Part shown: piece after piece, positions 81 to 33,670 of the stretch | Layout of the letters: every line of letters begins with the position of its first letter | Position numbering within the stretch: the stretch's first letter is position 1 | Source of the DNA: Coriobacteriia bacterium | GTDB lineage: Bacteria; Actinomycetota; Coriobacteriia; Coriobacteriales; Eggerthellaceae | Direction: 5' to 3' | DNA length: 38,981 nucleotides | Assembly (NCBI GenBank): GCA_030536315.1 | Contig: JAUNQF010000011.1 | Span: 1 to 38,981, forward strand | Notes under the pieces: generated by a model | The model's database searches: none | Seen by the model: only the letters and a program-made list of their open reading frames with translations | Told to the model about the DNA's origin: nothing | Translations under genes and position numbers: made by a program

Positions 81-1625
81 ATGAAAAATCCAATTTGTCT
101 AATAATAATGGATGGTTTTGGTCTTGCGGATGCGGGACCAAAGAATGCTATTGCTTCGGCGAAGACTCCTAATTTGGACAAAATTTTTAGCGAGCATAAA
201 GTTGCAAAGCTTGATGCTAGTGGCGAAGAGGTTGGCCTGCCTGCCGGCCAGATGGGCAACAGCGAAGTTGGTCATCTTAACATCGGCGCTGGTAGAGTAG
301 TATATCAAGAACTCACTCGAATCAATAAGGCTTGTGCTGATGGTTCAATTTTAAATAACGAAGTCCTAATCGAAGCTTGCAAGCGCGCCAAGGAAAATAA
401 TTGCGCCCTTCATTTGATGGGTCTTATTAGTGACGGTGGAGTTCACTCGAGTCTTGAACATTTATATGCGTTGTTTGATCTTGCAATTGCCGAGAACGTG
501 CCGCATGTCTTCGTTCACTGCTTTATGGATGGCCGAGATGTTCCTCCAACCAGTGGTGCTGAATACATTCGTCAGCTTGAAGACAAAATTTCAATCAAAA
601 ATGCTCAGTGCGTTGCCAAAGATAAAAAGACTTCGATTGCAATTGCTAGCATTCAAGGTCGATATTATGTGATGGACCGCGACAAGCGTTGAGACCGCGT
701 TGAGAAAGGTTACAACGCAATTGTGAAGGCCCAGCCTTGCGAGCCAACCCTGACTGCTGAGCGTGTTTGCGAAAAGTCTTATGCGGTTGATGTAACTGAC
801 GAATTCATTGTCCCAACTGCTCTTATTGACCGGCCTATGAAGGACGGCGACAGCGTTGTATTCTTCAACTTCCGACCGGACCGCGCGCGTCAAATTACTC
901 ATGCACTGACAGATGCTGACTTTAGTGACTTCGACATTAGTGGTCGCCCGAATGTTTACTATGTTTGTATGACCGAATACGATGAAACCTTCGACTTGCC
1001 AATTGCCTTTCCAAAGGAATTCCCGCAAAATGTTTTAGCGGATGTTTTGGCTGACGAAGGCCTGGTCCAGTATCATACTGCCGAGACTGAAAAATACGCT
1101 CATGTTACATTTTTCCTAAACGGCGGAATCGAAGCGCCAAAGAAAAATGAAATTCGTAGGCTAGTTGACAGTCCGAAGGTTGCAACCTATGACCTTCAAC
1201 CAGAAATGAGTGCGCCCGAAGTGGCTTCGTCACTTAGCGAAGCAATCCAGGCTGACACAGCAGATGTCTACATTGTAAACTTTGCGAACTGCGATATGGT
1301 TGGTCATACTGGTGTTTTTGATGCCGCAGTCAAGGCTGTCGAAGCTGTCGATACTGGTGTTGGCGAAGTTGTTCGCGCAATCGAGGCCAAAGGTGGCGCG
1401 GTTCTTATCACTGCTGACCACGGCAATGCGGATATTATGAAAGACGAAACCGGCAATCCTGTTACAAAGCACACAACAAATCCAGTGCCATTTGTCCTGC
1501 TAGACTTCACAGGACAAAACCGCGAACTTACTGCCGAAACTGGAGCTCTCTGCGACATCGCCCCAACACTCCTCAACCTCATCGACATTCAGCCATCCCC
1601 TGAAATGACCGGCCACTCCTTGTAA
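81..1625 (+). CDS. gpmI: 2,3-bisphosphoglycerate-independent phosphoglycerate mutase
   Basis: A 514-aa protein of normal family length (about 510), interconverting 3- and 2-phosphoglycerate in glycolysis with two Mn ions. Asp11 in the N-terminal MDGFG motif and Ser61 in MGNSEVGH are the expected metal ligand and phosphoserine nucleophile. The DGRDVPPTSG motif and the late metal-binding DHGNADIM motif are also present. The in-frame TGA at 690-692 falls at the W of the family motif MDRDKRWDRV, which is direct evidence that UGA is read as Trp; with the standard code the gene would look split in two. The ATG follows the tpiA stop with no gap and only a weak ribosome site inside tpiA, so coupling is likely. 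The stop is TAA. A GC-rich repeat follows at once. Confidence 0.97.
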
Positions 1626-1694
1626 TTCCCCGGGGCCAGAGCTCGATTTAGGGTGTCTAAAAACTCGATTTCCCCGGGGCCAGAGCTCGATTTT
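1626..1694. repeat. Intergenic CCCCGGGG-pair repeat, copy 1
   Basis: Two copies of the palindrome CCCCGGGG (1628-1635 and 1672-1679) lie 44 bases apart. Each is followed by CCAGAGCTCGATTT, and the spacer carries AGGGTGTCTAAAAACTCGAT. Nearly the same block occurs at 7297-7357 and 11247-11315. The two palindromes can pair with each other into a GC-rich stem directly after the gpmI stop, so the element may act as a terminator or mRNA-end stabiliser. A weak hairpin (ATCCA 1708-1712 with TGGAT 1724-1728, then a T run) lies just downstream. The function is inferred. Confidence 0.85.
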
Positions 1695-1756
1695 GGGTGG
1701 GGAGAGTATCCAGATTCTACTTTTGGATTTTTTGATTTTTTAGTTGAGCTTTGTAC

Positions 1757-1797: not shown

Positions 1798-4700
1798 TTG
1801 ATATCAACAGTAATTGAATTTGCAAGTAATCCAGACATTCCAGTTCCAATTAATGTCGATGCTCAAACGTCTGACAATTTGGGATTGATTATCCTTGGAT
1901 TGATTCTTGCAGCAACAGTTGGATTCTTGCTTTTTAACGTTTACAAAGGCAAGATGTCCTTAAACGTTAAAGGTATGCATTCAAAATCGCAAGTTGTGAT
2001 CAGCAATAATAAATTTATTGCCGCAACATTGATTGCCGTTGCAATTGCCGCGCTTATGTGCATTTTTTGCATAAGCAATTCTGCATTTGCTGCAAATGGA
2101 GTTAACGTTACAAGCACCGAAAAAGTAACAGCAACTTATGACCAAGCAACTGGCAAGGTCACTTTCGAAGAGGCTTTTGTTACAAGCGAGGAAGAAACGC
2201 AACTCGATTTCAACAGCATTCAACTTAAGCTCATGGACGGAATTGACGATGGTCACTGCAATTGAAAAATCTATCTAAATGACGAAGTCTTTTACGACGA
2301 CGTTGCAGGCTACACTCAAAAATTGTATGAGCCAATTAAAATGGAGCCTCTTGAGGAATTCACAATTACTTTCGAAACAAACATGAGCCCAGACGTTGCG
2401 TATTCTTTAGGTGGTCGTCAAGTAGCAACAGTAAATTATGATATCACCGAAGTCCAGACATATGTCAACGCCAAGCTTAATTTCCACGAGTCATCTATAA
2501 CTCCAGAAGGTGAGAAAGCGATTTCTCGAAATGGTTGGATTCTTAAAGATGGCTTATATCAAAAGAAGGAAGTTAAGAATTCGGAAATCGCTCCAGAGCT
2601 TGCTCCGCTTGAAGAGGGAATGGCAACTGGTAGCATTCAAAAAATGTATATGATGTTTACGGAGTGGACAATTTTAACTGTCGAAGACGAGCCAAAGGTT
2701 GTCGACATTTTCTCTAAAGACGTAACAATTGATGCTCAATGGGTAGATAGACCTGGTCTTCGTGGTTTTGTTGTTGACAATGCTGGCGAACCAGTCGAAG
2801 GCGCTATAGTAAATATTTACAATAAGAATACTGGCGAGATTGTTCAATCGCTTATCACCGATGAAAACGGCAAGTATATTTTCGAAAATCTTCCGCTTGG
2901 TGTTGAATATTATATAACTTACGAAAAATCGGGCACGCCAAATCTTGTTGCTCCTACTAAGGAATTTACTTCGTATGAAACAATCGGCGAGCTTGGCAAT
3001 AATGAAGTTACGGATGAATCAACTGTTAAGGGTAAGATTGAAGGTGCTCCACTTTCGCCTCAAACTTGGGCGGTTTTCTATGCAGATGACGGATCGAAGT
3101 ATGTTGCACCGGTTGACAGTCTAGGAAATTACAGTCTTCCTGTTCCTGCTGAACAGAAAGGCAATTTGCTCTTCGAAAACGACAACCCAGAAGTTATTAT
3201 TCCAGGCACACCAGGTTTAACAACTCCTGGTGCTGGAGAGACTTCGACATTGCCAAATAAAAATAATCTTCCAAAAAATCAATGCGAAAGCTTTTCTCTC
3301 AACCTTCAGCCTGCTGTTGAAGGTGCGCAGTTTGTTATAAGCCAATATAACTATACTGATGGAAATGAATATGCATTCGAGGCAACTTCAGATCATGACG
3401 GCAACGCAACCCTTTACGCAATGCCAAACTTGCCTGGAACTATTGAAGTCACATATTATGATCCGTTTTCCCGTCAAAATATTTCATACACACAAGATGT
3501 TGATGGAATTAATGCCGGTGAACAATTTATCCTGGATATTGATGCTACGAAGCTCCGTACAGTTGCAATGTCAATTTCTCCTTGAACAATTGACCAAGTT
3601 AATATTCCAAAAGGCTGAAGCACTAGTTATACAAAAACATTTGTTGTTGGCTCAAGCATAAATGCAATTGTTAACCAGTGGAACCCAAATTTAATGGATC
3701 ACCCTGAAGACGAAGCGTTCCTTTGCTGGTCAGAAAGCACTGGACAATTAGCTTATGATGATGGAGCAACTAAAAATATTTCTTTGATGTCTTCACCAAA
3801 AACTTATGCTAATTTTATAAAAGGCAAAGTAGTTGATTCGAACGGAAAGCCTGTTAGTGCTGCTAGAGTAGATTGTTTATTCACGCGTGAAACCCCTTCT
3901 TTCTTTCAGACAAGAATAACTTTAGCGACTGACAGAGATGGCTATTATAGTATGTATATGCCAAATTCATTTACTAAAGCATGAATTAGCGCATTTGGAA
4001 CAGAAGGGGAATTAGTAAATGCCTACAGTGAAAAGATTGATTTGACTATTAGCTCTGAATCTACCACTGTTCCAGATATTAAATTGATAAGCGGTTCTAC
4101 GTTTACAGGGAATTTAACATTTTCTTCATATATGCCTGCTAGCTATGTAACATTTTCAACTGCAGATAAACAATATGTTAGTTTTTCTAACGGTGATAAT
4201 TATGTGCTAAATGTTCCTACAAACATCGAAGGCACTTTATCTGTCACTCCACTTGTAACAGACTATAATTCTCCAAGCTGCACTATTATTTCGGCAGGCG
4301 CTGGCGAAGCTATTGTCCAAGATTTTTATCTATACAGAGAAGCTGATTTAAGCAAAGTAAATATAACTATTGAATCCCAATCTTCCAGTTCAACTTATTC
4401 TTTAAGTTATATTTCGGATGATAAACAATTCTCAATTGAAGAAGCTGGCATAGCTGCTGGAACACATACTTATACTGTTCCACCAAGCACACATGGTATT
4501 CTTAAAATTGTAGAGAGTGTTACTGGATGTGTATTTATTTACGGGCTCGACTCTGCTGCTTCTGGGTCTTCTACAACAGTAAGTGCAATTTTTAGAACCT
4601 TCCCAACTATTACTGCCGAAGTTGTAGATGGTACATTTATTGAAAGTAAAATGCCTGCGTTTTGGTCAAAAGAAAGCGACACACAATATACAACATCCAA

Positions 4701-5544
4701 ATTTATTGCTGGATCGACACTTGACTTGTGCTTGCAAGACATTGATAAAAATGCAATTGCAACTGAAAACTTATATTATTTCAAGGGCATAGAGCATGAT
4801 CCAAATGTTGTTCTTCTAACAGCTGACACAACAGTAACATTCAAGTGTGATCACTTTATTTCTGTTAAGGATAAGCTCTATCATAAACAAGATTGAGATC
4901 CACAACTTTATGAAGTAGGAACAATGAACGTGGTTGGTGATTATACAGATAATGTTTTGGGTTATAAAATATTACCATTCTGTTCTAGTATTTTGCTTGT
5001 TGGTCCTGACAATAAAGTTACAACCATGATTTCAGCGCTTATTACGTATAGTCCATACTTTGTACCTGAAACATGAAATTTTGGCAATGAAGCAACTGAG
5101 GAGTCTGGATATGTAATGTCTGACTTATATGTCTACCCTAACTTAGTAACTTCATGAACACCCAGCTCCGGAAGTATTTCAATTGGGGGAGATGTATCTT
5201 TAACAGATTCGGATAGAGACAAGCTTAACAAATTATTTTTAAAATCTGGAAGTACTTCTTGAAACTTTTACAGTGAAACTAATATCTTTTATGATTGTTA
5301 TAAACTTGCACCAGCTGTTATGGAATTTTTAGATTTGCATCCAACTAGAGAAGGATATACTTTTGGTGGTTGATTAATTCCTGATTATTTTAGTGCCCCA
5401 ATTGTTCCTAAGTGGATCCCAAATTCTCAAGCTAATGGTGTAACGATAGAAAATATTATTGTTTCTCCAGATGACGAAATCTATCAAGAAGCATTAAAAG
5501 ATCTTTATCCAGAAGATCAAGTAGACAACGAAGAAGTTAGGTAG
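1798..5544 (+). CDS. Large membrane-anchored surface protein with carboxypeptidase-regulatory-like domains and N-terminal QTSD hairpin
   Basis: A 1248-aa protein read through nine in-frame TGA (Trp) codons to TAG. The TTG start is supported by AGGGGAGG 5 bases upstream and by the MISTVIEF opening, which parallels the openings of the two giant proteins downstream. The N-terminus has a short peptide, QTSD at 23-26, a hydrophobic helix about 27-48, a basic loop, a second helix about 73-92 and an AFA/A signal-peptidase-like site near 96-99. The exported part has carboxypeptidase-regulatory-like beta domains near residues 320-377 (GLRGFVVDNAGEPVEGA) and 673-722, and an InlB-type repeat near the end (HPTREGYTFGGW). 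There is no C-terminal anchor. The SusD-like gene starts 8 bases after the stop, so the pair forms one operon. A binding or scaffold role at the surface is inference; no enzyme motif was seen. Confidence 0.85.
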
Positions 5545-5552
5545 GTGTAATT

Positions 5553-7286
5553 ATGAACAAATTTAATAATGCAAAACACGCAAAATCAAATTTATTTTTG
5601 TTTCCATTTATTGCAATTATAATTGCTGCGCTAGTTGCGCTTCCATTTATTGCTCAGGCTTTGTCCCAAAAAGCGCAGGCAGAACCTATGAGCCCTGCAG
5701 ATTGTGAGCAGGCAAGCATTCGCACGAATGATGTAGAAGCTGAATTAATGGACTGCTATGAAGCTTTTGGTCATGCATATAATAATGAATATAATTTTGT
5801 TATGATTTCAGAAATCATAGGTGGCGAATGTTTAGTAAGTGGCGATTACTATGATTCGCCTGCAAGGGTCCTTGATACGTTTGATAAGAATTCAACAACT
5901 CATAATACCGATATTTTAAATAATACTTGAGTAAATTATTATGCTGCAATTGACAAGATTAATGCATTTATTGATAAATACGATAAAGGTTCACAAACTT
6001 CTAGTGCAAACGTTCAGCTATTAGCAGAGGCTTATACGCTTCGTGGTATTTGTTATTTTGATCTTGCAAGGCTTTTTGAGAATGTTCCACTTGTTACAAA
6101 ACCTAATGGTCCTAAGGCTGGTCAGGCAAGTGTTGATGATTTGTATTCGCAAATACTATCAGATTTTGATTATGGTGCTATAAACGGAAATAATTTTATT
6201 AAAGACTCTGAAGAAAAGAACAAAACAAACCGTATTTCAAAATATGCATCAATGGCTATGATTGGCAGAGCTTACCTATTTTATAAAGATTATTATAATA
6301 GAGGCGAACAAATTGACATGAGGTATCCATCTATAAAGACCTATTTATCAAAGGAAGACGTTACTGCTTATTTAAAAGATTTAGTTTCGAATTCTGGTTT
6401 ACGATTAACAGAACAATTTCCTAATTCGTTTGCTAGTTCAGTTGCAATGTGTAGAAGTATTTATGTTCAAGCAGAACCAGGTGATATCGCCACCCTTCTT
6501 GGTGATGAAGAGCATGATCCTGGATTTGGGTTCTTTGATAAGAGTGAATATATATTTTCTATAAATTATAATTGCGAAACATTAAGTGAAAGTGATAATT
6601 GAACCAGTAAACTTGGAATTTATAATTCTCAACAGCTTTTAAGAGATTCTGGTTCTGGAATGATTTCTGTATCGCCTTCGGTTGATGCTGAAGTAAGAAT
6701 CCATGAAGTGATAGATCCTTATGCGCCTTCTCCAGATTTTAGATTTGGTATTCCTGGTATGTCTAAAGTTCCTTTAGATGGTGAAGCTTATCAAATGACA
6801 ATGTATTCGCAAAGTACATGGGATAAATATCTTTCAGAATGAAATAATTGTACTGGCCATATTATTTCAAAATATGCTCCTGTTTGTTATTCGGATGGAA
6901 CATCTGTAAATGTTAATCAACCTCTTGTTTTAATTCGATATGCTGACGTCTTATTGATGCTGTCAGAGCTTACTGGAGATCCATCATATCTAAATCAAGT
7001 TCAGGCAAGAGCTGGAGTTGCTCAATATTCCTATACTGTTGATAACCTTAGATATGAGCGCCAAACAGAGCTTATGTTTGAAGGCATAAACTACTGAGAT
7101 GATCTAAGATGGGGCAGAGCTGGTCAAAAGTTTAACGATTTGCAAGTGCCAATCTCCGTTTGCATGAATGGAGTATGGCAGTTAACTTCTGGATATGATA
7201 TTGCAAACTATAATTCGAAGCACTTCCTGCCTATTCCAGAAAGCCAGATTGCAAAATACGGTTATCGCCAAAACCCCGGCTGATAA
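5553..7286 (+). CDS. SusD/RagB-family glycan-binding protein (secreted, not lipidated)
   Basis: A 577-aa protein with five in-frame TGA (Trp) codons and a TAA stop. SusD hallmarks occur in order: a TPR-like helix with RGICYFDLARLF near 164-175, RYADVLLML near 463-471, ERQTELMFEGINYWDDLRW near 502-520, and FLPIPESQI with a terminal QNPGW. In Bacteroidota, SusD proteins are outer-membrane lipoproteins that cap a SusC TonB-dependent channel and bind glycans. Here there is a Sec signal peptide (helix about 14-37) with an AQA/E site near 41-44 and no lipobox cysteine, and no SusC gene is nearby. The ribosome site AGGTAGGTG overlaps the upstream stop. The Trp codon use matches its neighbours, so if it was acquired by transfer it has adapted. 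It may bind the co-transcribed 1798 protein; that is inference. Confidence 0.9.
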
Positions 7287-7296
7287 TTAATCATCC

Positions 7297-7357
7297 ATTT
7301 CCCCGGGGCCATAGCTCGATTTAGGGTGTCTAAAAACTCGATTTTCCCCGGGGAAAT
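7297..7357. repeat. Intergenic CCCCGGGG-pair repeat, copy 2 (terminator-like)
   Basis: The palindromes at 7301-7308 and 7346-7353 extend here into a perfect 12-bp inverted repeat: ATTTCCCCGGGG at 7297-7308 pairs with CCCCGGGGAAAT at 7346-7357 around a 37-base loop. The sequence ATTTTTATTTT follows. It lies 10 bases after the SusD-like stop, so termination is plausible. The copy differs from copies 1 and 3 at one base (CCATAGCTCG) and has one extra T before the second palindrome. Confidence 0.8.
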
Positions 7358-7386
7358 ATTTTTATTTTAAAAGTCTATCTTTAGGC

Positions 7387-7392: not shown

Positions 7393-7438
7393 AAAATCAC
7401 AGCGTAAATTCTTGAATAATTTAATGATTGGAGTCATC

Positions 7439-10400
7439 ATGAAGGGTCAACATGTAAATTTTACAGCCATTAAAATTAACAGACGAAGGAAAATTTTGTG
7501 CATTGTTGTTGCAATCGCATTAATTGGTCTTATGCTTCCTCATGGAGTTTTAGCCCAGGTCAGGGCCTTCGCTGAGCAAAATGCTCAAAGCGCGGAAACT
7601 ACTGAAGTAACAGTAGAAACTCTGCAAAATAACGAAGACACCGCAACTGATTCTTCTGAAGAAGTTGCTTCAACCACAACTGAAGAAACAACGCCAACCG
7701 AAGCTCCAGCAGTTGATACTTCGACAAGTGAAGCGCCAAAGTACCACGAAAGTGTTAACGGCATCACAGTTCAAGCTCCTACAAACCGATCTATCCCTAA
7801 TGGTATTCCAAACGAGGCACTTTCCGCAACATTCGAAATCGCAGATCCTACAACATATCCAGATGCCGGGATGGAAATGTATTCTTACGATTATTGGGAT
7901 TACTACGGCGATAGTGAAATTGATATTGTCAGCAAGGAAAAAATTACGGACCCAACTTTTTCGGAAGCTTATTTTAATGAGGATGCATATTATTATGTTG
8001 ATGCCGATACAAATATTTTAGTCCTTATCTATGGAACATATCAAGGTGAATATCGTGTTGTTCAGGTTTTGCCTTATGAATTTGGGAGTGCAAAATTTGT
8101 AAAATGGACACTTAATGATATTGATCTTGTCCCTGATGAATTTTATGATTTTTCTTCCTCAGTATCTACATATACATTTAAAGCAGTTTATGAGGCTGCC
8201 GAAGGTTATGCAGCAAAGTTGCAATTGTTTAGCGATGAAGAAGGCGTTAATATTTCTATAAGAGACCAAAGTTCGTTGCCTGAAGGATGGAATTGGTCTT
8301 CGGATGGTTTATGGGTTTCAAAAATGTTTGCTGAAGAAACTGCATACAATGATATTTATGCAGACTTTCTTGGCGAAGGAAATGCCTACGCCCTTCACTG
8401 GCCAGGTCATGAATTTAAAGGTTGAATACCACAGTCAGCTGAAACAACGCTAGTCGCAGATACAGCATTTTATTATAACTTTGAAGAACATGCCGATATT
8501 ACTGTTAAGGCATATGCTGGCGAAGGTGAATTTACTGGCTATCAATATTACGAAGAGTGGCAGCTAGTTGATGATCATTACGAAGCATCATTTAAATATG
8601 ATTCTACAACAATGGAAGACGTTATAGATAGTTGGAGTGTTGACTTTCCACATAAAGCTGGTTATACATTTAAGGATTGAACTTTAACCCCAGAAGTCGA
8701 AGGCTATTTGATTGATGACGTTACCATGACAGCAACTTATGAAATAGCTCAAACCTATAAAGTTGAATTTGCTGCAGAAGTTATTACAAACGGGGTCTTA
8801 AATAATCCAAGTTGCGTAGGCGGATACGTTGAAGGCGCTGACTCTTATTACGTTGTTGAAAATTCAGAATATTTTCATGATTCATTTTATGGTTATATAA
8901 CTTATCCAGAAACATATGTGCTTTATGACAATGGTACAGACCTATATAGATATGTCGAGGCTGTTGCAAATGACGGTTATGAATTTGATTCGTGAGAAAT
9001 TACTCCTGCAGGCAGTGACGAAGAAGGCTATGTTACTCAAGACATGAAGTTCACTGCGAAGTTCAAAAATCTTGGTTCTGCTGTTGCAACCTTCGACTTT
9101 ACCGAAGACGAAACAATTGTAGTTGACGCCACTAAGGCTACCGAAGCCGGATGAGAAAAAGATTCAGCAGCAAATAAATGATCAAAGGTTATTCCATTAG
9201 GAACGGCAACTGTTCAAGCAATCGAAGAAGAATGAAGCGACTATGTTACATATTCGGATGGAAGCATTTATGCATGAAATCACAACAATGAAACCTATTC
9301 ATATGACAGCACAATTGATACAGACACAACGTGGGTGCCTCATAAAATTACAAATGATGACTATCAATTTTCGGTCACTGCAGACGACGAATATGGTTTT
9401 AATGCATCTTTATATGATCTTGACCCTGATTTTAATATAGCGTGATATCAATTTTTTGGTGCCGACTTTTCTGAGGCTACAACTTACAACGACACTTATT
9501 TTAGCAAGTATCCACTAAACTTAAAGTCATCGCTTGGCATGATTGGTTATCAAATTATTGATAATGACCTGGTATATGCTTATGTTAATGAGCGCGATAC
9601 CAACACATGATATTACGGTCTTGTTGTTCCAAATCTTGATGGCGCCGATAATGCTTATGTCCAATGGTCGCTAAATGGTGAACCTATTACAACAAGTAAT
9701 TTTAATTACTTTACTACCAAGACCAAAAATTATCATTTCAGTTATGATGTTCAAGAGAGTGTTAATGTTCGAGGTCAAATAACTGATGCTATTACTGCAG
9801 AACCACTTTATTATGAATATGTCTATTTTGTAGCTGGCGATGACCCAACAGCTGATCCTTTATTAAGAGTTGAAACTTCAGAATACGGTTTGTACAACTT
9901 TAATATTCCTAAGGGTACTTCGGGATATATTAAGGCTGATATTCGAGGTTATGGCACCGAAGTTGTTAAGGTTACTGGCACAAGTGACGAAGTTCACGAC
10001 ATTTCGCTTTATCCTGATATTGAGCTTTCTGGTCGAGTTGTAGGTGTTGACGGAAGTCAGTTGCAAGGTGTAAAAGCGGTGATTTATGATAGCGATACAA
10101 ATTTGCCCGTAAGCGATGAGATTTACACAAATCAGTATGGATATTATCGTTTTTCTGATCTTGTTCTAAAGGATACGAAATATTTTGATGAAGATGGATG
10201 CCCTACAAATATTTATGTAAAAGTTGAATACAAGCCGTTTACATCAATGGCTGCCTTTACAGGAACCTACACTGGAGAATTCCCTTACGGAGGAGATGCT
10301 GCTTATAAGGCTGGTGATATTACACTTGAGCCTGGTCTTTCGCCAAGCGAATGAAGTGTAAGTGCACTTGATGCTGCAGATCATTACACCTTCTATATAT

Positions 10401-11236
10401 ATGGAACCTATAATGGCGTAACATATGAAGGTGCAAAATTTAATACTTGAAATCAAAATTGGTTATATCAAGGTACCAAAGTTGGTGTAATTCGCGGCAA
10501 CATTCATGATGGAAGGACTTTTGGCCTTCACCTCGAATATGAATATGAAGGAGCTCCTTCGGAACATCACTATGATCTCTACATTTATGCTAAGTCAAGT
10601 GTCGAAGACCACACTCCTTATGCATGACGCCTTAATGGTGATTGAGTAACCGATTATATTGACCCAGGTTTTGTTTTGAATTTTAATGATCTTGATCCTG
10701 CTTCTGATGCCGTTAAATTCACAATGGAGTACAAACAAACAATTACTTCAACAATTAATGGCGAAGGCATTGAAGGTCATGATCATTTTCATACTCAATA
10801 TTACATTAATGATCCAGAGCATCTTTATCCTCCGACTGCCGAATGAGATAGTGCTTCTGTAAAAGATGAGCTCTATGTTGGTACTGAAATTTCCATTACC
10901 GAAGAGGGATTTGTTCACCTTGATTATGTTGATCCAAGTCTAAATTATGCAAATGAAGACGAGGATGTTTACGACGAGTGCGGAATTGTTGTTCCTATTC
11001 CTGCCGAAGGTTATCAAATTGCAAGGTGGACTTTAAATGGTGCAACTTTTAACCCTGGTGAACTTTATATTGTAGGAAGTGATGCTACGATTGATTTGGT
11101 TCCTGTTTATGAACCTATTCCAGCGCAGATTGATGCAAGCGCTCAAACAGGTGATTCCACTTCGACATTGTGAGTTTTTGCCGTACTTGTAATGGCTGGC
11201 GCTACATACATTGCAACCCGCAAAAAACTAAACTAA
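7439..11236 (+). CDS. LPXTG-like (QTGD) cell-wall-anchored surface protein with InlB-type and carboxypeptidase-regulatory-like domains
   Basis: A 1265-aa protein read through about 15 in-frame TGA codons to TAA. The ATG at 7439 has GGAG 5 bases upstream; TTG 7412 and ATG 7424 are weaker starts. A signal peptide (RRRK at 15-18, helix to about 38) ends at VLA/Q or AFA/E near 39-45. A Thr/Ser/Glu-rich spacer follows to about residue 100. The middle holds InlB-like strands (HKAGYTFKDWTLTPE), and two carboxypeptidase-regulatory-like domains lie near 775-960 (VNVRGQITDAITAEP, ELSGRVVGVDGSQLQGV). The C-terminus is a classical sorting signal: QTGD at 1236-1239, a hydrophobic stretch, then RKKLN. The protein should be sortase-linked to peptidoglycan. 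Its ligand is unknown. Confidence 0.88.
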
Positions 11237-11246
11237 CAATATCTAT

Positions 11247-11315
11247 TTCCCCGGGGCCAGAGCTCGATTTAGGGTGTCTAAAAACTCGATTTCCCCGGGG
11301 CCAGAGCTCGATTTT
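11247..11315. repeat. Intergenic CCCCGGGG-pair repeat, copy 3
   Basis: Palindromes at 11249-11256 and 11293-11300, again 44 bases apart, with the same spacer and the same CCAGAGCTCGATTTT tail as copy 1. It starts about 10 bases after the stop of the 7439 gene. It is nearly identical to copy 1 over about 65 bases, although the two lie almost 10 kb apart. Confidence 0.85.
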
Positions 11316-11376
11316 GAATAAACCTCAATTTCTTTCCAGGCATGAAATACAGATTTTCGTGAGAAAAGTTTTGTGT

Positions 11377-12320: not shown

Positions 12321-12345
12321 TTCTGTCTTAAAGGAAGGAGACATT

Positions 12346-15300
12346 ATGGGAGAATTTAAGACTGCGGTAGAATTTGTTCTGGGCCAAAGCCCTACACCAG
12401 AACCTACACCTGGTGGATGAACACCCTCACAAACTGGCGATTTACTTGGTATTGTTGGTGTAGTTTTGTTTGCACTTATTGCAATTGCCTCGCTAGGATT
12501 TTTTGTATATTCAAATAAGAAATCTGGCGTAAAGTATGGCAACTACATTTCAAATGCAGGTAAAGCTACGCTAACAAAGTCTAGCAAAATTGCTATTGCT
12601 GCTTTTATGATTGCTACGCTGGCCTTATGTAGCGTAATTTTCATACCAAGCATCACAAAGGCAGTGGCTGCAAATGACGAAGCGGATGAAACAGTCAAAG
12701 TTTATGTTGACACCGAAGCAGGAACCTTGACTTCGGAGCCTACAACAATTGTCAACAAGACTGATAAAAATGCTTATATAGCAGCTGTTCAAACAACCTT
12801 AACGCCGGATGCCGAAGAAATCTTGAAGGATGCAAAATTTAATCTAAAGATTGAATCCGAAACTCTTGGCACAACTTTGTATAACAAGGAAGTTCCTGGC
12901 GTAGACGACTCGATTAAGAGCCTACCATTTGCGGCTGGTCAAAAAGCCCAGGCCACATTAACAATCACGGATTTGGGCCTTGACACAGCAAAGCTGCTTG
13001 CCGGATTGAACGTGTTCACTGTTTCGTTCATTGAAGCCGAATGCTACGTTGTTTCATATGATGCCAACGGAGCAACTTCTGGAACAGCTCCGGCACTTCA
13101 GACCAAAGATCCTGGTAAAGATATCACTCTTGCCGCAACCACGGACCTTGAAAAAGACGGTTACACTTTTGAAGGCTGGAACACTTCGGCAGACGGATCT
13201 GGTACAACCTATCAATTAGGCGCAACATTTTCGACAGACGCTGACACTGTTTTGTACGCATACTGGAAGGAAAATCCTACTCCACCTCCACCTCCTCCTG
13301 CAGATACATATCGTGTTACATTTGTTGCAAGCACCGGCGGTATTGTTGATGCCGAATACATTGATGTTGACGAAGGCACCACTCTGGTCTATACCCCAAC
13401 AACAGGTAAGCTTGAGCTCAAAAATCAGGCTGACCAGTCGACCGTTAAAACTGTAATAGCAACCGCCAACACCGGATTTGTTTTTAAACAATGGGAGCTT
13501 GACGGAACAGCCATTACAACCGAAGGCACCATCAACTCTGCTTCCAAATTTACGGCCGTGTTTGACAAAGACATTCCAATAAGTGACTACACAATTACAT
13601 ACAAAGTCTTAAACACCTTCGATGCTCACGGCTCGATTGCTCTAAATTCTTCTAACGAAAACGGCGCTCCACTTGTTTCTGAAACTGTAACTGCAACTCA
13701 TGCTGCTGTTGGTGCGACGGCTTCGGAGGAAGACCATCCAGAATTTGGATATTACTATTTCTTTGACGGTTGGACTATCGAAGACGAAGCGCATTCGACC
13801 TGGTCATGTACCGATCCTTGCCTAAGCGCCGAAGCAATTGCAGCCCTTGGTTTAAGGGAAGACACAATATTCATTGCTCACTTTATTGCTCCCGTTGCTA
13901 AATATTCAGAAGAAAATTCGACCATGGTATTTTCTTGTGACGAAGTAATTGGCGATGGCAATTACACATTCCCCGTTTACAATTCAAATTGGGACGAAGA
14001 ATTTATGCAGTCTGGCGATTTTAGCCTTCTAACATTCCCAGCATGGTGTAATTATGACGGAACTCAAAAAGTCTATCCAAGAACGGTTCGTTTCAACGAA
14101 TCATTTGCAAAATACAAAGGCCTAACGTCAACATCGTTTTGATTTAATACCTCAACCATAACGTCTAGACGCATTTCAACTTCAAATGACGAAGGCAACA
14201 ATACTTCTCCATATAGTAGCGAAGCCAATTTAATCATGGAAAAAGCGACACTTCAACAAAGTGTATTAACAAATGTTTATGGTCTTGAAAATATATACAC
14301 TCAAAATCTTACACAGACAGCATTTATGTTTGCAACTTCAGATTTTTTGCTCAGAGAAATTTCAAATCAAAATGCAAATCGTCTTAATAGTTTAGATCTT
14401 TCATCATGAAATATTAATCCAAAAGACCAACAGGGTAATCCTCAATATGTAAACATGCGTTCAATGTTTATGGGTTGTACAGGTCTTACAAAGCTTGATT
14501 TGCCTTCGGAAGAACAAGGCCATTATTTTGGTACCTATGCTAATAATTTCACTGAGTGTTTTTATCGTTGTTCAAGCCTGCAAACTTTAACTTTAAATGG
14601 TGATTTCGGTAAATATGCCACAGATTTGACTGGCATGTTTGTTATGTGCAGCAGTCTATATAGTATAGATATTGGTTCTGGGTTCGGATCCGCTGCCACA
14701 CGTTGTATCAGCTTATTTGATAGTTGCGAATCGCTTTTAAATATTAAGTTTAATCCAAATTTCTGTCAAAACGCTACAGATATTTCGCATATGTTTTATT
14801 GTTGTTTAAAATTGACTCAGATTGATTTTGGCACAAATCCAAAAATAGGCCAGAGTGTACGTTTTTGCAATTGTATGTTTCAAGGTTGTTACAATCTTAG
14901 AACTATTGATTTGTCTTCTTTTGTTGTTAATGAAGACGTTAGTTGTGGAGATATGTTGAACAACTGTGGTTCTTTAGAATCATTTAGGATTTCTGATTCT
15001 TGAGAAGAACCAATGAGTTATACAAACTTAGGTTCTGTAGAATCTAGTGAAGGTTGATATTTAAATTACAATAAAGGAATTTCATATGATAAAAACCAAA
15101 TTCCAGAAGAAAGCGGTTCTGGTTTATTTTCGAGGATGAGCGCTAAAGCAGTTTATGACCCAAAGGCACTAACTTTTTCATTCTATTACGATTGCGACTC
15201 TCATAGCGATGATATAAGCAGGGGATGTACTGTTTATCCTGTTGATGGTAATTGTGGTTTTTCCGCTGGACAGTATGGAATCCGTTCCACAGAAAGAAAT

Positions 15301-20566: not shown

Positions 20567-23500
20567 ATGACTACATTTAACACCGTTGTTGAATTTGTTC
20601 TTGGCCAAAATCCCACACCAGAGCCTACACCTGGCGGATGAACTCCAACTCAAACTGGCGATTTTATTAGCACTGCGCTAATTTTGCTGTTTGTTTTGGT
20701 TTCCCTAGGCTCAATGGCTTATTTGCTTTATTCTCGTAAAAAGGTTGGTGTAAGCTATGGGGGTTACTTTAAAACCACTGGTAAAAATGCACTAACAAGG
20801 TTAAACAAGATTGCAATTGGTGTGTGCATTGGAGCTTTTGTTGCACTACTTGCCGTTGTTGCTTTTAGTGGTGTGAACAAGGCAATTGCGGCTGATAAAG
20901 AGGCGGACGAAACAATTAAAGCCTATGTTGATGTTGAGTCTGGCACTGTAACTTGTGATGTTGCAACAATTGTCAACAATAGCGAAAACACAGTTTATAT
21001 TGCTTCGACTCAGGTAGATTTAACTGACGAAGCAAAGGAAGTCCTCAAAGATTCTACGTTTAATCTAAAAATTCAATCGGATGACCTTGAAACTACCCTT
21101 TATGATAAAGAAGTTCCTGGTGTAATGGACGAAATTAAAAGCCTTCCTTTTGAATCTAAACAGTCGGTTAAGGCTTCGTTAACTATTACAAACCTTGACT
21201 TTGCCACAGCAAAATTGCTAATTGGCAAGAAGGTTTTGGACATCACTTTTGCCGAAAAAGATTGCTGGTCGGTTGTTTATAACAGCAATGGTGCTCAATC
21301 GGGAACTACTCCTTCGCCACAAATTAAAGAAGCTGGAAAAGCTTTAACATTGGCTTCGAAGCCTGACTTTGTTAAAGAAGGTTACACATTGCAAGATTAT
21401 TGGACAACAGATCCAGCTGATGGTGCTTCGGCAACACACTATAATTTTGGCGCCGAATACACCGACGATGCAAACCTAACCTTATATGCTGCGTGAACCC
21501 CTAATCCTGTTCCAGGAAAATATAACGTAACATTTACTTGTTCCGAAGGCGGAAGCATAACATCGGGTTCTGATTTTTCTGCTGACGAAGGAGTTGAATA
21601 TGCTTATAAGGACATTGCAACAAGCGCTACGGAACATTCATTGGAATTTAAAACTAATGAGTCTGATGACTCCCATGTTATTACTGTAAAAGCAAGTGAA
21701 AATTATAAATTTGATAAATGGACAGTTAATGGTGCGGCTGTTACTCAAGGAAAAATTAGTTCGTCAACAGCATTTGTTGCCAACTTCATCTATGTTGCTC
21801 CTCCTTTAACGGACATTAAAGTAACTTATAAAATTTATAATACAATTTTTGTTAACGGTAACGTTCAGTTGCTTAAGTCGGGTTCAAGTCCAGATGTAAG
21901 TGTTTACGAAGAAGTTAAAGTTAGCGAACAAAACTATCAAGGTGCAAAGGCAATTGAGCTAGAAGACAACGAAGATAGCAGGCTTGATTATTTCTGATAT
22001 CACTGGACAATGGAAGGTGTTGATGACTGGTCCTATGATGGAAAAGAACTTACAAAAGATGTTATATCTGCAAAGTTTGGAACTCTTAGCGAAGACGTTA
22101 CATTTATTGCTCATTTTGTAACTCCTGTTGCAAAATATACAGAGTCAAATTCGACCATGATTTTTTCATGCGATGATTATGCTGACGAAGACGACAACTT
22201 CATCTTCCCTGTAAACAATACTCACTGGGATGATAATTTTGATGGAACCTCAGAAACTTTAGGCTTGTTAACATTGCCAAGTTGATGTAATTATGATGGT
22301 ACGCAAAAGGTTTATCCAAGAACAGTTAAGTTTTTAGAATCATTTAAAGCGTACAAAACTTTAACATCAACATCCCTTTGGTTTAATTCACAATATCTTC
22401 TTCGGAACGAAGCTACGGCTGTTATTTCTGAGGAAAGCCCATCATATAGTCAAAAGAGAGTTTTAACAAATATTTCTGGTCTAGAAAATATTTATACTGA
22501 AAATATTGAAGAGACTGCAATGATGTTCAGTTGTTCGTATGATAACAGGTCAAAAGATCTTTTAACTAGTATTGATTTATCCTCATGAAACCTTTGTCCA
22601 AAAGACTCAAATGGTAATTACAAACCTATTAATATGAATTCAATGTTTAGTTGTTGTTCTGGCTTAGAAACTATTAAGCTTCCTGCAGAAACCGAAGGCC
22701 ATTACTTTGCTACAAACGCAAGTAACCTTGCTTATATGCTTGATGATTGTATTAGCCTCTCTAAGATTAGCTTAAATGGTTCTTTTGGAGCAAATGCTAC
22801 CACCATACATGGATTGTTTGGTTGATGCAATAATCTTTTAAATATTAATATAAATGAAGATTTTGGAGCTAAAGCAAAAGATGTCGGTTATCTATTTGCT
22901 GACTGTAACAAATTAAAAGAAATTAATTTGCCTGCAAATTTTGGTGCTGTAGCTACAAATCTTGATAACGTATTTTCTGATTGCTATGAATTGCTCAATA
23001 TTAATTTTGCAGAAGGCTCTAAGTTTGGTATGGCCTCTCAAACATCTGAAAACTTTAGATGTGATCACATGTGTATTGAATGCTATAAATTAAGGTCGAT
23101 TGATCTTTCTAACTTTAAGATACCTAATAGTTATACTCCAGAGAATATGTTCGTAGATGCAAATGATATTTCTGAATTCAAGATTTCAGATAAATGAGAG
23201 GTAAATATGAGTGATGTCGGAATGCATGGTGTTGACGATTCTAATAAGTGGGTTAAGGATTATACTGGAGGTTCATACGCAACAGAAGCCATTCCTGGCT
23301 CTTCTGGTGCCGGTATCTTTGTATTAACTACACCAAAGGCAATTTATAACCCAACAGATAGCACTTTTACATTCGTTTATGATTCTGCAGATCATTCAGA
23401 AGAAGTAAAAGCTGGTTCTACAATATTCCCTGTTTATGAGAAAACTGGTTATGTAACAGGAATGATTCAGGAAGATATTGATGATTATTCGGCATATAGA

Positions 23501-26500
23501 CTTATGGGTGACACATTGGCATCGTTTGTTGTAAATGCTGGAGGGGAAGTATTACCTTTTAGACCTCATCAATTAGGACGAGTATCTCAAGCTGAATATT
23601 ATGATATTTCAAATTTAGATTTGCCGTCTTGGTACTATCTTGATACAGAGGCATATAAAATTGAGTGCATGATTAAGAACGATGTTACTGTAATCTTCGA
23701 TTCAAGCTTTTCTATGTGTAAAGATATTTATAGTACATCATGTTGGTTTATGGCAGACTCAGATGGAAATGCGCCATTTACTCAATTTAAGAGTCGAATA
23801 AATGGAAAACTTGTTGATGGCTTTACTAATATTCCTACTAATAATCTTCAATCATGCTCTTCGATGTTTGGTGGTTTTTGTTACGAAGCCTACAAGCATC
23901 ATAATTATTGGTACAATGGATCAGATAGTGATATTCCATTATCTGACCCTTGGCGAATATTACCAGCTTCAAATACTGGAAATGTATTTGTATCATCGTT
24001 TTTGGATACATACAATTACAAGCTAAGTACCTTAGATCTTTCAACTTTCAATATTTCTAACATGAATGTAATTGATTATGGTGCCATATGTGCTAATTGT
24101 AAAGGCCTTACCACAGTAACATTGCCATCTAGATTTATTCAACCTAGTCAAGAAGATAACAATTTTGATTATCCGGGCACAAGAGGGGATTATATCTCCT
24201 TTTCTGCAGCTTTTTATGGCTGTGAAAAACTTGAGAATGTTACAAATATTCAAAAATTTAATCCATTTACGATTATGTCTAAGAATAAAACGTTTGGTTC
24301 ATATTCTATTGGACGTATGTTTTATGGCTGTAAAAGCCTAAAGAGTATTGATCTATCCTGTTTTGATGTTGATAATTATATTGGTTATTCAGGTCTTGGT
24401 TACTCCGCTATGTACCGTTACGAAGATGTATTTTGTGGTTGTGAGATGCTTAATCAGATTAAATTAGGTAATGGCTGAGATTTACCTATGTCGACATATT
24501 TGGAGAAAACAAAAGGCGAAAGCAACAATCGTAATATTAGTATGTGTGCTAACTTGCCAGCCTATGATAGTGCCGATATTTTTTGGACGTTTACGCCAAA
24601 TGATACTTCCTTACCGCCTGTTACTGATCTTCCAACTTATGCAATTCCTATTCGTGATGATAAATCTATATCAGACTACCCAGCTGGTACTTATGTACGA
24701 AGCGATAGTTCCGTTTCAACTTTGCTAAAAACCATTACTATCAGTCCTGATGATGAGAATAAGGGTAACGTTAGCCAGGATTCATACACCTTCTATAATA
24801 GTTCATATTCCAGCGCAAATGAAAATGTGGTTGAAATTAGTTGTAGCAATAATATTTTATGAATTGAAGATACAAGAATTGTTGCTACCCCTAAAGAAGG
24901 TTACATTTTCACTTATTGGACACTGGACGGGCAGATTTTTGATTCGTCAAATGATCAATATGTTAATAAGTCTTCAAGTATTGTTGCTCATTTTATGCGT
25001 TCTGATTACACGGCAAAGGCAGTTTATCAGAAAAACAATAGCGCATATGATGGTCACAACACACTAAGTTTTTATTTTGATAACATAGATCATAATTCTG
25101 AAGGTGATGTATATGAAGTTAATAGCTCGTTTGTTGATACTTCGTCTCGCTATGTAAATCTACCTTCATGATATACATTAACATATGTTGCCAGCAGCGA
25201 TTCATGGGCCTCGAAATTTAAAGAAGGTAAACAGCAGCAAATAGGGTCTATAAGCGAATATATACGTCATATTGATGCTACGATGATGGATTATAATCCG
25301 TATTATTCAGCTCGTATATATAGTGTTCTTTCTACTCAGTATAGTTCTTTATGAAGGATACAGACATTGGTAGAACCAGAGGATGTTGTTTTTGATAAAA
25401 GCTTTAAAGATTATACGCAACTTCAAAGTATATCTATGTGGTTTATGGCCGATATGTTTGGTACACAAACTGTCAAGAATTTTTACAGCCCTACTGATTC
25501 AAATCCAAAAAATCCTGGTTTTGCAAATATGTTTACAGGTAATTTAACTGACGTTTCCTATGCTTTTGGTGGTTTATTTCAGGAGGTAAATGCGCTACCA
25601 AATATGTTAATGCCTACTCAGGAATTAACAAATAGTGTTTTTGATGAAACCAAGGATGTTGTCTTAAATCAGCTTTGGTCTAATGATTACGAAACATACG
25701 GCACTTCGTTAGAGAATATTGACTTAACAGGATTTGACTTTTCTAATATTAAGGACATGTCATATATGTTTGCCAATTGCGTTTCGTTAAAGAACATTAA
25801 GTTTGATAGTAATTTGGACACGTCTCGCAATTTATACAATATGGGAACATTTGCAAATTGCGAAAATCTTGGACCTGTGTTTAGTAATAGCGTGCAAAAT
25901 TGAGATAAGTTTACTACGGAAAATGTTGCTTTCTTTGACGAAATGTTTTACGGATGTAGTGGAATTGTTGAGCTTGATTTGTCTAAGTTTAATACCGACA
26001 AAGCAGTATGCAATCCTAATTTCGAAGATTTATATAACGGAAATATAAGTGCTCCTGGTATGTTTAGTGAATGTACAAGACTAACAAAAATTAATGTTCA
26101 TTCAGAATATGATGATGATAGCTATTATAACATTACAGGTTTTAGTCTAAATCTGGGCGAATCAGGTCTAGCAAACTGTAATGGTGATAACGTAGTATGG
26201 AAAAATGATGGTGACACATCATGGCAGGAAACTGATTCTTCTTACAGGATTCCATATAATAGCAATATTATCTGGGAAGGCTCAGATTTATCTGAAGGAA
26301 ATATTCACACAGGTACATTTTATAGGTCTCAAAATTTTGACGAAAAGAGGGTTGAAGTTGTTTCAAATGATACATCAAAGGGTACAGTTAGCGAAGACGG
26401 TTATGGTTATATAAATAATGTACAAATTATGCTTAACAATTTAGAGAGCAATTCAATTAATTTAGATAATCGTAAAATAACAGCTACAGCAAAAGACGAA

Positions 26501-28840
26501 AATTCAAGGTTTGCTTATTGGAAGATTCAAATTGGTGACGAAGATGAATTTACAATGCCTAATGGTTATTGTGAAACCTTCTTTGCAGATGATGATCTTG
26601 AGATAACCATTACTGCTGTGTTTGTGTCAAATGAAGAGAATGGTTATGTGGCATTTTCTAACCATCAAAATGGAGATAAAAAGGAAGGTACATTTACTTT
26701 CTACTATGGCACTGCTGACGAGGCTTCTGATTTTGTTCCAGAAGGAGATACATTTGTAGAGGTTTATCCTGTTTATAATAATACAAGCGATTATAACTTG
26801 CCTTCGTGGTATAGAAAATATCAGGAATCCTGGATTAGTGGCGACAACCATCCAATTCCTAAATTTGTAAACAAAGTTGAATCAAATGCTGATACCATTT
26901 TTGTTAACTTCGATTCTTCGTTTAAGAATTTTGATGAGTTGCGTAGTATGTCTTGCTGGTTTATGGGTGCTTTATCTGCAACTAACGAAGCAGTCTTATA
27001 CAATCCATTTGCTTTAGATTCGGCAGAACACTTTAGTGGCCTCGATAATATTAATACCTCAAATATAGATAATGTTGCTTATATGTTTGGTGGTAGTGAA
27101 TTCTTTAATGAGATTCATGGATCAAAGAACGAAACCATTTATCTTAAGGACTTTGATAAGGAAGGAAACATTAGGAATCTATCTGGCATATTCGCCAATT
27201 TGCCAAGGCTAACCAACCTTACTGTTGATAATTGCTTTAATGGAATGACAAAGGTTACTTCTACTTCGAAGATGTTCTACAATACTATTAAACTAGAAAA
27301 GAGCAATCTAAACTGGTTAAAGACACAAAATGTTGAAGATATGTCTTATATGTTTGGTAATTCAGTTGATGGAAAGCCTAAAGAAAAACTTGTTGAGGAT
27401 AATCCGTTTACACTTACACTTCCAGAGAATTTTGTCTTTTCTGATAATTTGTATAATTTAGAAGGTATGTTTAGTGGATATGCAATTTATCCAAAGCTTA
27501 TAGTTGATTTCTCAAAAATTCATACAAGCGAAAATAAGGTTATTCGTAAGGCTAACATGTCACATATGTTCCAAAATTGCTATTGGATTTCAAGTATTGA
27601 ATTTAAAGGAACCGTACCTGAGATATTTAGTAGGGGTACCGACATGTCATATATGTATAAGAACTGTTCTAACATAAAGAAGGCAACAAATGGCAACGAT
27701 AGTGCAATTCCAGTACCATTACAATGTGTGGCTTATGTTATTAATTTTAACAATATGTTTGATGGTTGCACCAGCCTAGAGGATTATTCGCTTACTCGCG
27801 AAGATAAAGATTTCGATATTGAATATATGCAATATATGTTTAGTGGTTGCACTTCGTTAAAGACAGTTAGTTTGGATAGTGGATACTATTGAGATAAGAG
27901 TTGTTCTGGGCCAGCGCTTATGTTTAATAATACTGATGGCACTTTAAATACTACGTTAGAGCATTTTTCATTTGATAGAGATAATTGATATGATGATATA
28001 AGTTTTTATGATTGTGGTCTAAGTCTTTTTGTTGATGACTCTGCTGGATCATCTCAATTAAACCCATTAATTCCTATAACATGAGTTCGTCAAAGTGATC
28101 TATCTTATGCTACTCCGTTAAATTTACCTATTGATGATTCAGAAGACAATAATGATGTTTCTAATATTGAGACGTATGATCGAGCTACAACTAATATTAG
28201 AGTTGCAAATTGCTATAGTTTTTATGGTTATAATTGGGAGTCGACAGATTGGCATGAAACAGCATTAAGGTGCGTTGATGTCGGTTACTATCAAATTATA
28301 TATTATATTGGTATTCCAGAGGGTTATTCGCTGAAAGTAAAGTATGTTGATGAAGAACCAGCATATGATGAAGTTTTTACCTATGTAGAATTTGTTTTAA
28401 GCAATCCAGACAATAGTAAATCTCATTATTATAGAATAGGCCAATATTATGACGAAGGAACTACTGACCCACATGATTGAACTCTTCATGATGTTGATGG
28501 TAAAGTACAAGATTATAAGTTAACTTCTGAATATAAAACAATTACTGCAGGATCTAATTATTGTATATATTATCCTTATGTTCCTTATGAAGTTCAACCT
28601 AGGTTATTTTCTGAGAATGCTAGCAATGATAATTATATAGATAATAACTTAGATCAAAATGATGCTTATGCTGAAGAGGTTGCTGTTGCTGACGAAGCCA
28701 TGCCAGCTGGGGAAACAGCATTTGAAACAATGGCAAGTCCAGATGTTTCAGCTGTCGAAGTTGCTACTGCCGCAATGAGCATATTGACTATGCCGTTGCC
28801 GATTCAGTTCTTTTCGTTATTGATTGAGATTCTTATATAA
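20567..28840 (+). CDS. Giant BspA-like leucine-rich repeat (DUF285) surface protein B with N-terminal QTGD hairpin
   Basis: A 2757-aa tandem paralog of protein A, read through about 16 TGA (Trp) codons to TAA. The N-terminal module matches A position for position: VEFVLGQNPTPEPTPGGW, QTGD at 29-32, helix 33-55, RKK at 57-59, second helix 82-101, AIA/A near 106-109. An InlB-type repeat (KEGYTLQDYW) and a second beta repeat follow, then four BspA/DUF285 units (starting near bases 22130, 23340, 25010 and 26640) with WFM motifs such as SCWFMADSDG and SMWFMADMFG. Divergent InlB-like linkers precede the last two units. The tail repeats EVAVADEAMPAG and ends in a hydrophobic stretch without charged residues behind it. 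It has its own promoter and terminator. A surface adhesion or antigenic-variation role is inference. Confidence 0.9.
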
Positions 28841-28864
28841 GATTTCAATTTAATCTAAAATTTT

Positions 28865-28891
28865 GGGCCTCTTTTTAGAGGCCCTTTTTTT
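28865..28891 (+). terminator. Intrinsic terminator of giant gene B
   Basis: GGGCCTC (28865-28871), loop TTTTTA, GAGGCCC (28878-28884): a perfect 7-bp stem followed by seven T residues. The loop is identical to that at 20444-20449. The T run overlaps the proposed -35 box of the ribosomal operon. Confidence 0.93.
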
Positions 28892-28919
28892 GTGATATCC
28901 CTGCAAATAGTGATATAAT
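28890..28919 (+). promoter_or_regulatory. Promoter of the rplB ribosomal operon
   Basis: An extended -10 element, TGATATAAT (28911-28919), has a plausible -35 TTGTGA at 28890-28895 and an 18-base spacer. Transcription would start near 28926, giving a leader of about 110 bases before rplB. Confidence 0.7.
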
Positions 28920-28925
28920 GCATCG

Positions 28926-29037
28926 TTGCGCCCGTGGGAAAATGAACACGCCCGGAAGCGTGGGAGATTTTTACTCGCCTGCATATGGCGCAAAGAAAGC
29001 GCAGGCCCAAGGCCTCGCAAACGAAAAGGAGATTAAA
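28926..29037 (+). promoter_or_regulatory. Structured 5' leader of the rplB operon (possible ribosomal-protein autoregulatory RNA)
   Basis: The leader is GC-richer than its surroundings and can fold. CACGC (28947-28951) pairs with GCGTG (28958-28962) around CCGGAA. GCCTGC (28977-28982) pairs with GCAGGC (29001-29006). CGTG at 28933-28936 can instead pair with CACG at 28947-28950, so alternative folds exist. The ribosome site is AGGAG at 29027-29031. Ribosomal operons are often controlled by such leaders; which protein would bind here is unknown. Confidence 0.4.
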
Positions 29038-29871
29038 GTGGGAATGAAAACATTTAAACCGACTTCTGCTGGTAAGCGTTTTCAGACGGTTTCGGACTTC
29101 GCTGAAGTTACGAAGACTACGCCTGAAAAAAGCTTAATTGCCAAAAAGAAGAACCACGCCGGCCGTAACAATTATGGCCGTATCACAACTCGTCATCAAG
29201 GTGGCGGAGTTAAGCGCAAGTATCGCATTATCGATTTCAAGCGCGACAAAGACGGCATCCCAGCTAAGGTTGCCAGCATCGAATACGATCCAAACCGTTC
29301 AAGCTACATCGCTCTTCTTCACTATGCCGATGGCGAAAAGCGCTACATCCTTCAGCCTAAGGGCTTAAAAGTTGGCGACACTGTTATTAGTGGCGAAGGC
29401 CAGGACATCAAGCCTGGAAACGCAATGAAGCTTGACGCAATCCCAGTTGGTACTTTTGTACACGCTGTTGAAATGCAACCTGGAAAAGGTGCTGCAATGG
29501 CTCGAAGCGCTGGAACCAGCATTCAGTTAATGGGTAAGGAAGGCGATTACGCAATTCTTCGTATGCCATCATCTGAAATGCGACGCGTTCTTTTAACTTG
29601 CCGCGCAACAGTTGGCGAAGTTGGAAACGCCGAACACGTTAATATCAAAATTGGTAAAGCTGGCCGCAAGCGCTGGATGGGTGTTCGCCCTACAGTTCGA
29701 GGCACAGCAATGAACCCAGTTGATCACCCACACGGTGGTGGTGAAGGTAAGAACAAGAGTGCTGGACGTCATCCAGTATCTCCATGAGGCCAGCCTGCTA
29801 AAGGTGCTCGTACTCGTAATCCTAAGAAAGCAAGCAGCCGCTTAATAATTAGACGTAGAAGAACTAAGTAA
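29038..29871 (+). CDS. rplB: 50S ribosomal protein L2
   Basis: A 277-aa protein, the normal length. L2 supports the peptidyl-transferase centre and subunit association. The GTG start at 29038 lies 6 bases after AGGAG; ATG 29044 is a less well spaced alternative. The conserved region [13 protein letters not shown] is present. The TGA at 29785-29787 gives the invariant W of GRHPVSPWG, strong evidence for UGA = Trp; read as stop, L2 would lose its basic C-terminal tail (IIRRRRTK). It is the first ribosomal gene here; rplW, rplD, rplC and rpsJ, which usually precede it, are absent. Confidence 0.97.
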
Positions 29872-29892
29872 TTAGTTGGAAGGATTTTATAA

Positions 29893-30162: not shown

Positions 30163-30171
30163 GTGATATAA

Positions 30172-31881: not shown

Positions 31882-31892
31882 AGGAGTAAATG

Positions 31893-32162: not shown

Positions 32163-32180
32163 TAAAAGGCAGGTATTATC

Positions 32181-32549: not shown

Positions 32550-32561
32550 GCGGTGATTGTG

Positions 32562-32879: not shown

Positions 32880-32892
32880 TGGGTGATAAATT

Positions 32893-33441: not shown

Positions 33442-33464
33442 TAAGATGGTAAGAGAGGAAAACC

Positions 33465-33650: not shown

Positions 33651-33670
33651 GATAGATAGAGGTGATGTAA

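Follow-up and report, generated by a model that had tools for sequence, protein, structure and literature searches.

The contig analysed here ('the window' below: 38,981 nucleotides, C10:1-38981 in our numbering, of a Coriobacteriia genome of 1,089,702 bases in 31 contigs) encodes, at 5553-7286, what is by its sequence matches a full-length and genuine protein of the SusD family. SusD is regarded as typical of the Bacteroidota and as a lid that covers a pore in the outer membrane; this genome carries two SusD-family genes in native context, neither encoding a lipobox, gives no match to SusC or Omp85 models, and is the only one of its order, among those sampled, to have the family at all. On balance we consider it probable that the window protein, one of two and derived from Bacteroidota, has been recruited as a secreted, SusC-independent, ligand-binding surface protein. 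The family is a known one, but its setting, in an unexpected cell type, and its pore-free use appear to be new, because there are two genuine copies with neither a pore, nor a lipid tail, nor any sign of an outer membrane.

Two SusD-family proteins without a lipid anchor

Both Pfam models of the family match the window protein well above their cut-offs: PF07980 (SusD_RagB) with 61.1 bits against 23.1 (E 1.8e-16), and PF14322 (SusD-like_3) with 54.6 bits against 27 (E 2.2e-14). A phmmer search of PDB sequences gave 24 matches at E<=1, most of them named SusD, with 6gcz_A the best (E 1.3e-16), and in profile-profile alignment (hhalign) the two copies of this genome matched an alignment of 14 comparator SusDs with probability 100 (E 1e-57, 450 columns, residues 52-577). 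The SusD hallmarks that the first-pass annotation had read in this gene are thus borne out by three kinds of comparison, and homology to solved SusDs predicts that the protein has their TPR-based fold. The comparators were picked, mainly for length and diversity, from the 64 listed plasmid matches (H1-H64); a SusD from locus L106, considered below, served as a fifteenth.

The second copy, on contig C9, is 27% identical to the window protein (BLASTP). Of the 23 columns that are invariant in the 14 comparators (the initiator Met counted), 21 are kept in the window copy, where those of the lipidated Cys and of one Ala are lost, and 14 in the C9 copy; of the 37 columns shared by 13 or more comparators, the two copies keep 28 and 23. 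In a leave-one-out control, run at a slightly different threshold, the comparators themselves keep from 32/40 up to all such columns, and so both of our copies, above all that on C9, are more divergent than the comparators. The invariant columns that they do retain suggest that the fold is under selection without its usual partner.

The window protein has a single hydrophobic stretch in its signal region, with a probable cleavage site placed by the A-Q-A motif, and its first Cys is residue 51, so that it has no lipobox; the Sec signal without a lipobox that was proposed at first pass is upheld. In the C9 copy, likewise, the N-terminal hydrophobic stretch precedes an A-x-A motif, and there is no lipobox. 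In contrast, a lipobox-like pattern is present in 14 of the 15 comparators, and the remaining one (L094) has FSC by eye. This absence is specific to the SusDs, since lipoprotein-type sequence does exist in the genome: a GH28 pectinase-like protein, encoded about 7.4 kb from the C9 SusD (C9:37223-38614), has a lipobox (LLAGC) near its start.

The comparators are also marked by their neighbours. A TonB receptor is annotated directly upstream in 11 of the 14 from plasmids, and the remaining three, as well as L106, have SusC-like upstream open reading frames (ORFs) by eye. The TonB-barrel model PF00593 found no match in the whole of our genome (75% complete), extending the earlier observation that no SusC lies near the window gene. 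Our two proteins therefore share with the SusD/RagB family, whose lipoproteins close the SusC barrels encoded in polysaccharide utilisation loci of Bacteroidota, full-length homology, the core columns and the QNPG[YW] C-terminus; they differ in having no lipobox, no SusC upstream, no detected outer membrane and an actinobacterial host in which UGA encodes tryptophan (Trp).

By E-value (1e-31) the best plasmid match is a Parabacteroides SusD, WP_009276809.1 (L092), which is 25.5% identical over 87% of the query and, unlike the window protein, has a lipobox and a TonB receptor directly upstream. A tblastn search of plasmids with the window copy gave 44 records, by name from Bacteroidota except for Gemmatirosa and Catenovulum, and in a tree of 17 SusDs our copies group with the Parabacteroides SusD (support 58/96, with a long-branch warning). 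We infer a Bacteroidota origin for both; the phylogeny suggested at first pass gives a tentative grouping and does not settle the donor clade.

A possible pore-free receptor and its alternatives

How could a SusD act without a pore? We propose that it would be exported by Sec and cleaved by signal peptidase I. The mature protein would most likely stay at the cell wall or close to it, fixed by a neighbouring protein or by glycans of the wall, unless it is not retained there. There it could bind a glycan, glycopeptide or related polymer independently of any barrel, and captured sugars would be imported via ordinary cytoplasmic-membrane transporters. The ligands are probably glycans or glycopeptides; the GH28 neighbour of the C9 copy is a weak hint at plant glycans. 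As precedents, PMC11267923 describes SusD homologues with affinity for cellulose and chitin, whether isolated or fused, and PMC3969230 describes NanU, a SusD-family protein without a lipid anchor, which needs no partner to bind sialic acid and is found in part in the cell-free fraction. The window protein is like NanU in fold family and in having no lipid anchor; NanU differs in having a partner barrel, NanO, and a diderm host, and its model scores the window SusD at 21 bits (E 1.2e-4) against a cut-off of 425. If such a role is real, a SusD fold can serve by itself as a receptor, kept under selection in a pore-less monoderm, and ligand capture has been separated from transport by nature, a separation that is an open question for SusC/SusD.

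Several points weigh against this proposal. The SusD-like protein of a xylo-oligosaccharide locus did not bind its substrate alone, according to PMC9599597; no carbohydrate genes are clustered with the window copy; the missing quarter of the genome could still hold a SusC; the tree settles neither the donor nor the number of acquisitions behind the two copies; and a single-sequence AlphaFold2 model of the window SusD is unusable (mean predicted local distance difference test score, pLDDT, 35). A more elaborate version, in which SusD was rebuilt as a lipid-free, SusC-independent receptor standing on the beta-sandwich stalk of a partner, with two copies serving two ligands in a recoded monoderm, is possible but doubtful.

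The partner would be the 1248-aa (amino-acid) protein encoded directly upstream, and a related explanation, which we consider unlikely, is that SusD is tethered through it: its CarboxypepD_reg domains, anchored in the membrane by the N-terminus, would substitute for SusC. As annotated at first pass, the SusD gene follows 8 nucleotides (nt) after this ORF, and Pfam finds two PF13620 (CarboxypepD_reg) stretches in the product; the gene pair is also bracketed by hairpin repeats, possible terminators, and the protein has two N-terminal hydrophobic segments. However, its domain type is not that of SusC: it scores 61.6 bits with PF13620 and 29.3 bits with PF13715 (below the cut-off of 32.2) and has no plug domain, whereas a true SusC gives 69.8 bits with PF13715 and 40.7 with PF13620, plus Plug, and no BLASTP similarity was found between the two (E 0.88). 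A SusC-like origin, which the mention of SusC in the first-pass annotation might suggest, is rejected on these grounds. The protein belongs to the CarboxypepD_reg/SpaA-type beta-sandwich surface proteins (PF13620, PF17802), which are common in Gram-positive bacteria, and differs from them in its N-terminal two-helix module and in that a hydrophobicity scan found no C-terminal hydrophobic segment; its body had no tblastn match in the plasmid collection.

Also against a tether is the generic nature of this N-terminal module. Seven proteins carry it: three of the window, two from the rest of the genome and two of a related genome (G395, introduced below). Its elements run TxIxFV or a like motif, a Pro/Gly-rich stretch, QTGD (QTSD in the 1248-aa protein and STGD in one other), helix, basic loop, helix and A-x-A. 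This points to a lineage-wide targeting module and not to a SusD-specific tether. The C9 SusD, moreover, has a neighbour of another kind and in reversed order: the next gene downstream, which shares 11 nt with it, encodes a secreted protein, of which a 420-aa fragment matches DUF6273 (E 1.4e-7). Since A-x-A follows the second helix in all seven proteins, their bodies may be released, if signal peptidase cuts there; the hydrophobic segments behind the earlier description of the 1248-aa protein as membrane-anchored are present, but the label is uncertain because A-x-A follows both of them, and the idea of a dedicated tether is not supported. With QTGD before it and basic residues after it, the first helix of the module resembles a C-terminal sorting signal for sortase that stands at the N-terminus instead.

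It is quite improbable, in our view, that the SusDs have a non-nutritional role, as adhesins, as scaffolds, or as secreted proteins that dock, via a conserved face, on SusC barrels belonging to Bacteroidota nearby. A SusC and its SusD are mutually specific as a rule, which argues against docking. In favour, the regions proposed in PMC2954216 as the SusC-binding face of BT_3984 do appear to fall within the two conserved stretches, the window copy keeps 21/23 invariant columns, and no sugar genes lie beside it; but the same residues may serve the fold, and the C9 copy has only 14/23.

Host envelope, genetic code and native context

The SusC-independent role that we favour depends on the cell in which these proteins reside. 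The genome (75.36% complete, 1.67% contaminated) is that of a gut-type member of the Eggerthellaceae (Actinomycetota) reading UGA as Trp. When its SecY was compared with relatives from named genomes, the best 80 of 336 were nearly all titled Eggerthellaceae, Eggerthellaceae genera, Coriobacteriaceae or Coriobacteriia, the nearest of these 80 being that of G395 (L007, 'Coriobacteriia bacterium isolate S32M_St_metabat_43'; 88% identical, the next 83%). A sortase is present, and the Omp85 model PF01103, which matched in 7 of 14 control genomes, had no match in this genome or in G395. From the Eggerthellaceae affinity, the sortase and the lack of PF00593 and PF01103 matches we read the organism as a single-membrane actinobacterium, in agreement with the first-pass annotation. 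That it is instead a diderm, with a SusC in the unassembled quarter, is highly improbable: incompleteness leaves room for this, but the sortase and the missing Omp85 and TonB-barrel matches speak against it, and the SusC gene of the comparators is directly upstream of SusD, where the window has none.

The use of UGA for Trp is supported by in-frame UGA at conserved Trp positions (window 28918-37509; C9:67977), including the Trp of SPWGQPAKG in ribosomal protein L2, which we take to be a conserved position; L2 of G395 is 92% identical to ours. Support also comes from the lack of any match over cut-off to prfB (release factor 2, RF2) in our genome (75% complete), where the sole RF2-model match, at 272.5 bits, is close in score to the presumed prfA of G395 (276.3 bits); the prfB of G395 reaches 469.5 bits. 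No in-frame UGA was seen in G395 in SecY or in two surface-gene frames. The search for a tRNA-Trp(UCA) covered the window and five loci (L005, L108, L109, L110, L112). A literature search found no paper joining 'codon reassignment' with 'Eggerthellaceae', and the names of the group are absent from the accessible main texts, supplements aside, of two genome-wide genetic-code papers (PMC8629427, PMC13092985); a recoding of this kind in Actinomycetota may not have been described before.

Both SusD genes use this code. At a column with Trp in 14 of 15 comparators both have UGA, and Trp is written UGA/UGG 5/3 times in the window SusD and 10/4 in that of C9, compared with 9/8 and 15/12 in neighbouring surface genes and 2/19 in 11 ribosomal and secY genes. 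SusD would have been transferred into a bacterium whose genetic code differs, and the UGA codons within the gene suggest adaptation after arrival.

Within the order, our own genome is the only one of 395 with a PF07980 match (264 of the 395 have a completeness of 90% or more and a contamination of 5% or less), and none of 8 named close genomes, G395 included, has one. An even sample of the phylum gave 2 of 396, the other being G703, in which a lipobox SusD directly follows a SusC-like C-terminus on a 27-kb contig (L106, C134); we do not count it as a second actinobacterial SusD, since by its neighbours it is most likely Bacteroidota contamination. A scan of the genome_contigs collection with the window SusD gave 46 pattern matches, none of them a relative, and three different queries found no SusD match in viral contigs. 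Our literature search, over the titles and abstract starts of the papers listed, with few subscription journals among them, found no report of SusD in Gram-positive, actinobacterial, Eggerthellaceae or monoderm bacteria.

In the window (28850-28918) and in G395 (C18:18877-19757) alike, rplB opens its ribosomal cluster without rpsJ-rplC-rplD-rplW directly upstream; in G395 the place is taken by different genes, and the seven that precede rplB in the window are missing from the 27.5 kb compared. As the break is common to both, assembly is unlikely to have created the junction, and gene content here varies. The locus of the C9 copy (mfd side) was not at the place on contig C9 of G395 that synteny would suggest. 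Although the rarity of SusD in the order and the example of G703 are what an assembly chimera or Bacteroidota contamination would produce, either is very unlikely indeed, because UGA stands at a near-invariant Trp in both copies and is used in flanking genes, the rplB break recurs in G395, and the copies lie on two contigs with core-gene flanks, one sharing its contig with an Eggerthellaceae SecY; the earlier judgement against a chimera, made on UGA use, holds.

Gene order, repeats and neighbouring loci

The ORFs of the window were read with UGA as Trp, and most gene names were assigned by reading.

Table 1. Positions of the features discussed (in the window unless a contig is given)
Feature	Position	Strand	Remarks
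Phosphoglycerate mutase	81-1625
73-nt hairpin repeat, copy 1	1623..1695	+	at phosphoglycerate mutase stop codon and beyond
Large surface protein, 1248 aa	1798..5544	+	TTG start preceded by AGGGGAGG
N-terminal two-helix targeting module	1798..2090 (end approximate)	+	hydrophobic 25-50 and 66-84, then A-F-A
CarboxypepD_reg (PF13620) domain	2758..2937	+	residues 321-380; Pfam
SusD-family protein, 577 aa	5553..7286	+	last sense codon UGA, then UAA
Putative Sec-type signal sequence	5553..5681	+	hydrophobic residues 10-39, A-Q-A at 41-43
SusD-like_3 (PF14322) region	5889..6278	+	residues 113-242; near-invariant Trp 126 written UGA
SusD_RagB (PF07980) region	6789..7283	+	residues 413-577, terminating in QNPGW
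73-nt hairpin repeat, copy 2	7296..7368	+	3' of SusD stop codon
Next surface protein	7412..11236	+	likely start ATG 7440
73-nt hairpin repeat, copy 3	11244..11316	+	3' of 7412 gene
Cysteine synthase-like gene	after 7412 gene
Giant DUF285/InlB-repeat surface proteins, tandem, ~2,700 aa	12253-20409 and 20567-28840
rplB-to-secY ribosomal cluster	after giant genes
Other module sites, window	12343-12700, 20567-20900
Other module sites, elsewhere	C13:21744, C7:27650; G395 C7, C9
Second SusD-family gene, 574 aa	C9:28074-29798		PF07980 E 1.7e-9, PF14322 E 1.1e-7

The 73-nt repeat is present in three direct copies with paired CCCCGGGG palindromes and strong predicted hairpins; copies 1 and 3 are 99% identical and copy 2 is 78% identical. 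Each directly follows the stop codon of a gene, which may mean that the repeats act as terminators. As copies 1 and 2 bracket the 1248-aa and SusD genes, and copy 2 separates SusD from the 7412 gene, the pair would form one transcription unit and the 7412 gene a separate one, the two proteins of the pair probably being co-transcribed or co-translated. The repeat was not seen in the fetched loci beyond the window's own stretch, nor in viral contigs.

The 7412 protein has a signal sequence, an InlB-like B-repeat and a C-terminal QTGD-helix-RKK sorting-type tail. The two giant surface proteins are paralogues, Pfam having been run on the first only. On C9, the second SusD gene lies between an mfd/rpoD side and a fructose phosphotransferase system (PTS)-like gene (names by reading), and further along the same contig (C9:41670-52000, L108) an ethanolamine/diol-dehydratase microcompartment cluster is recognisable by eye.

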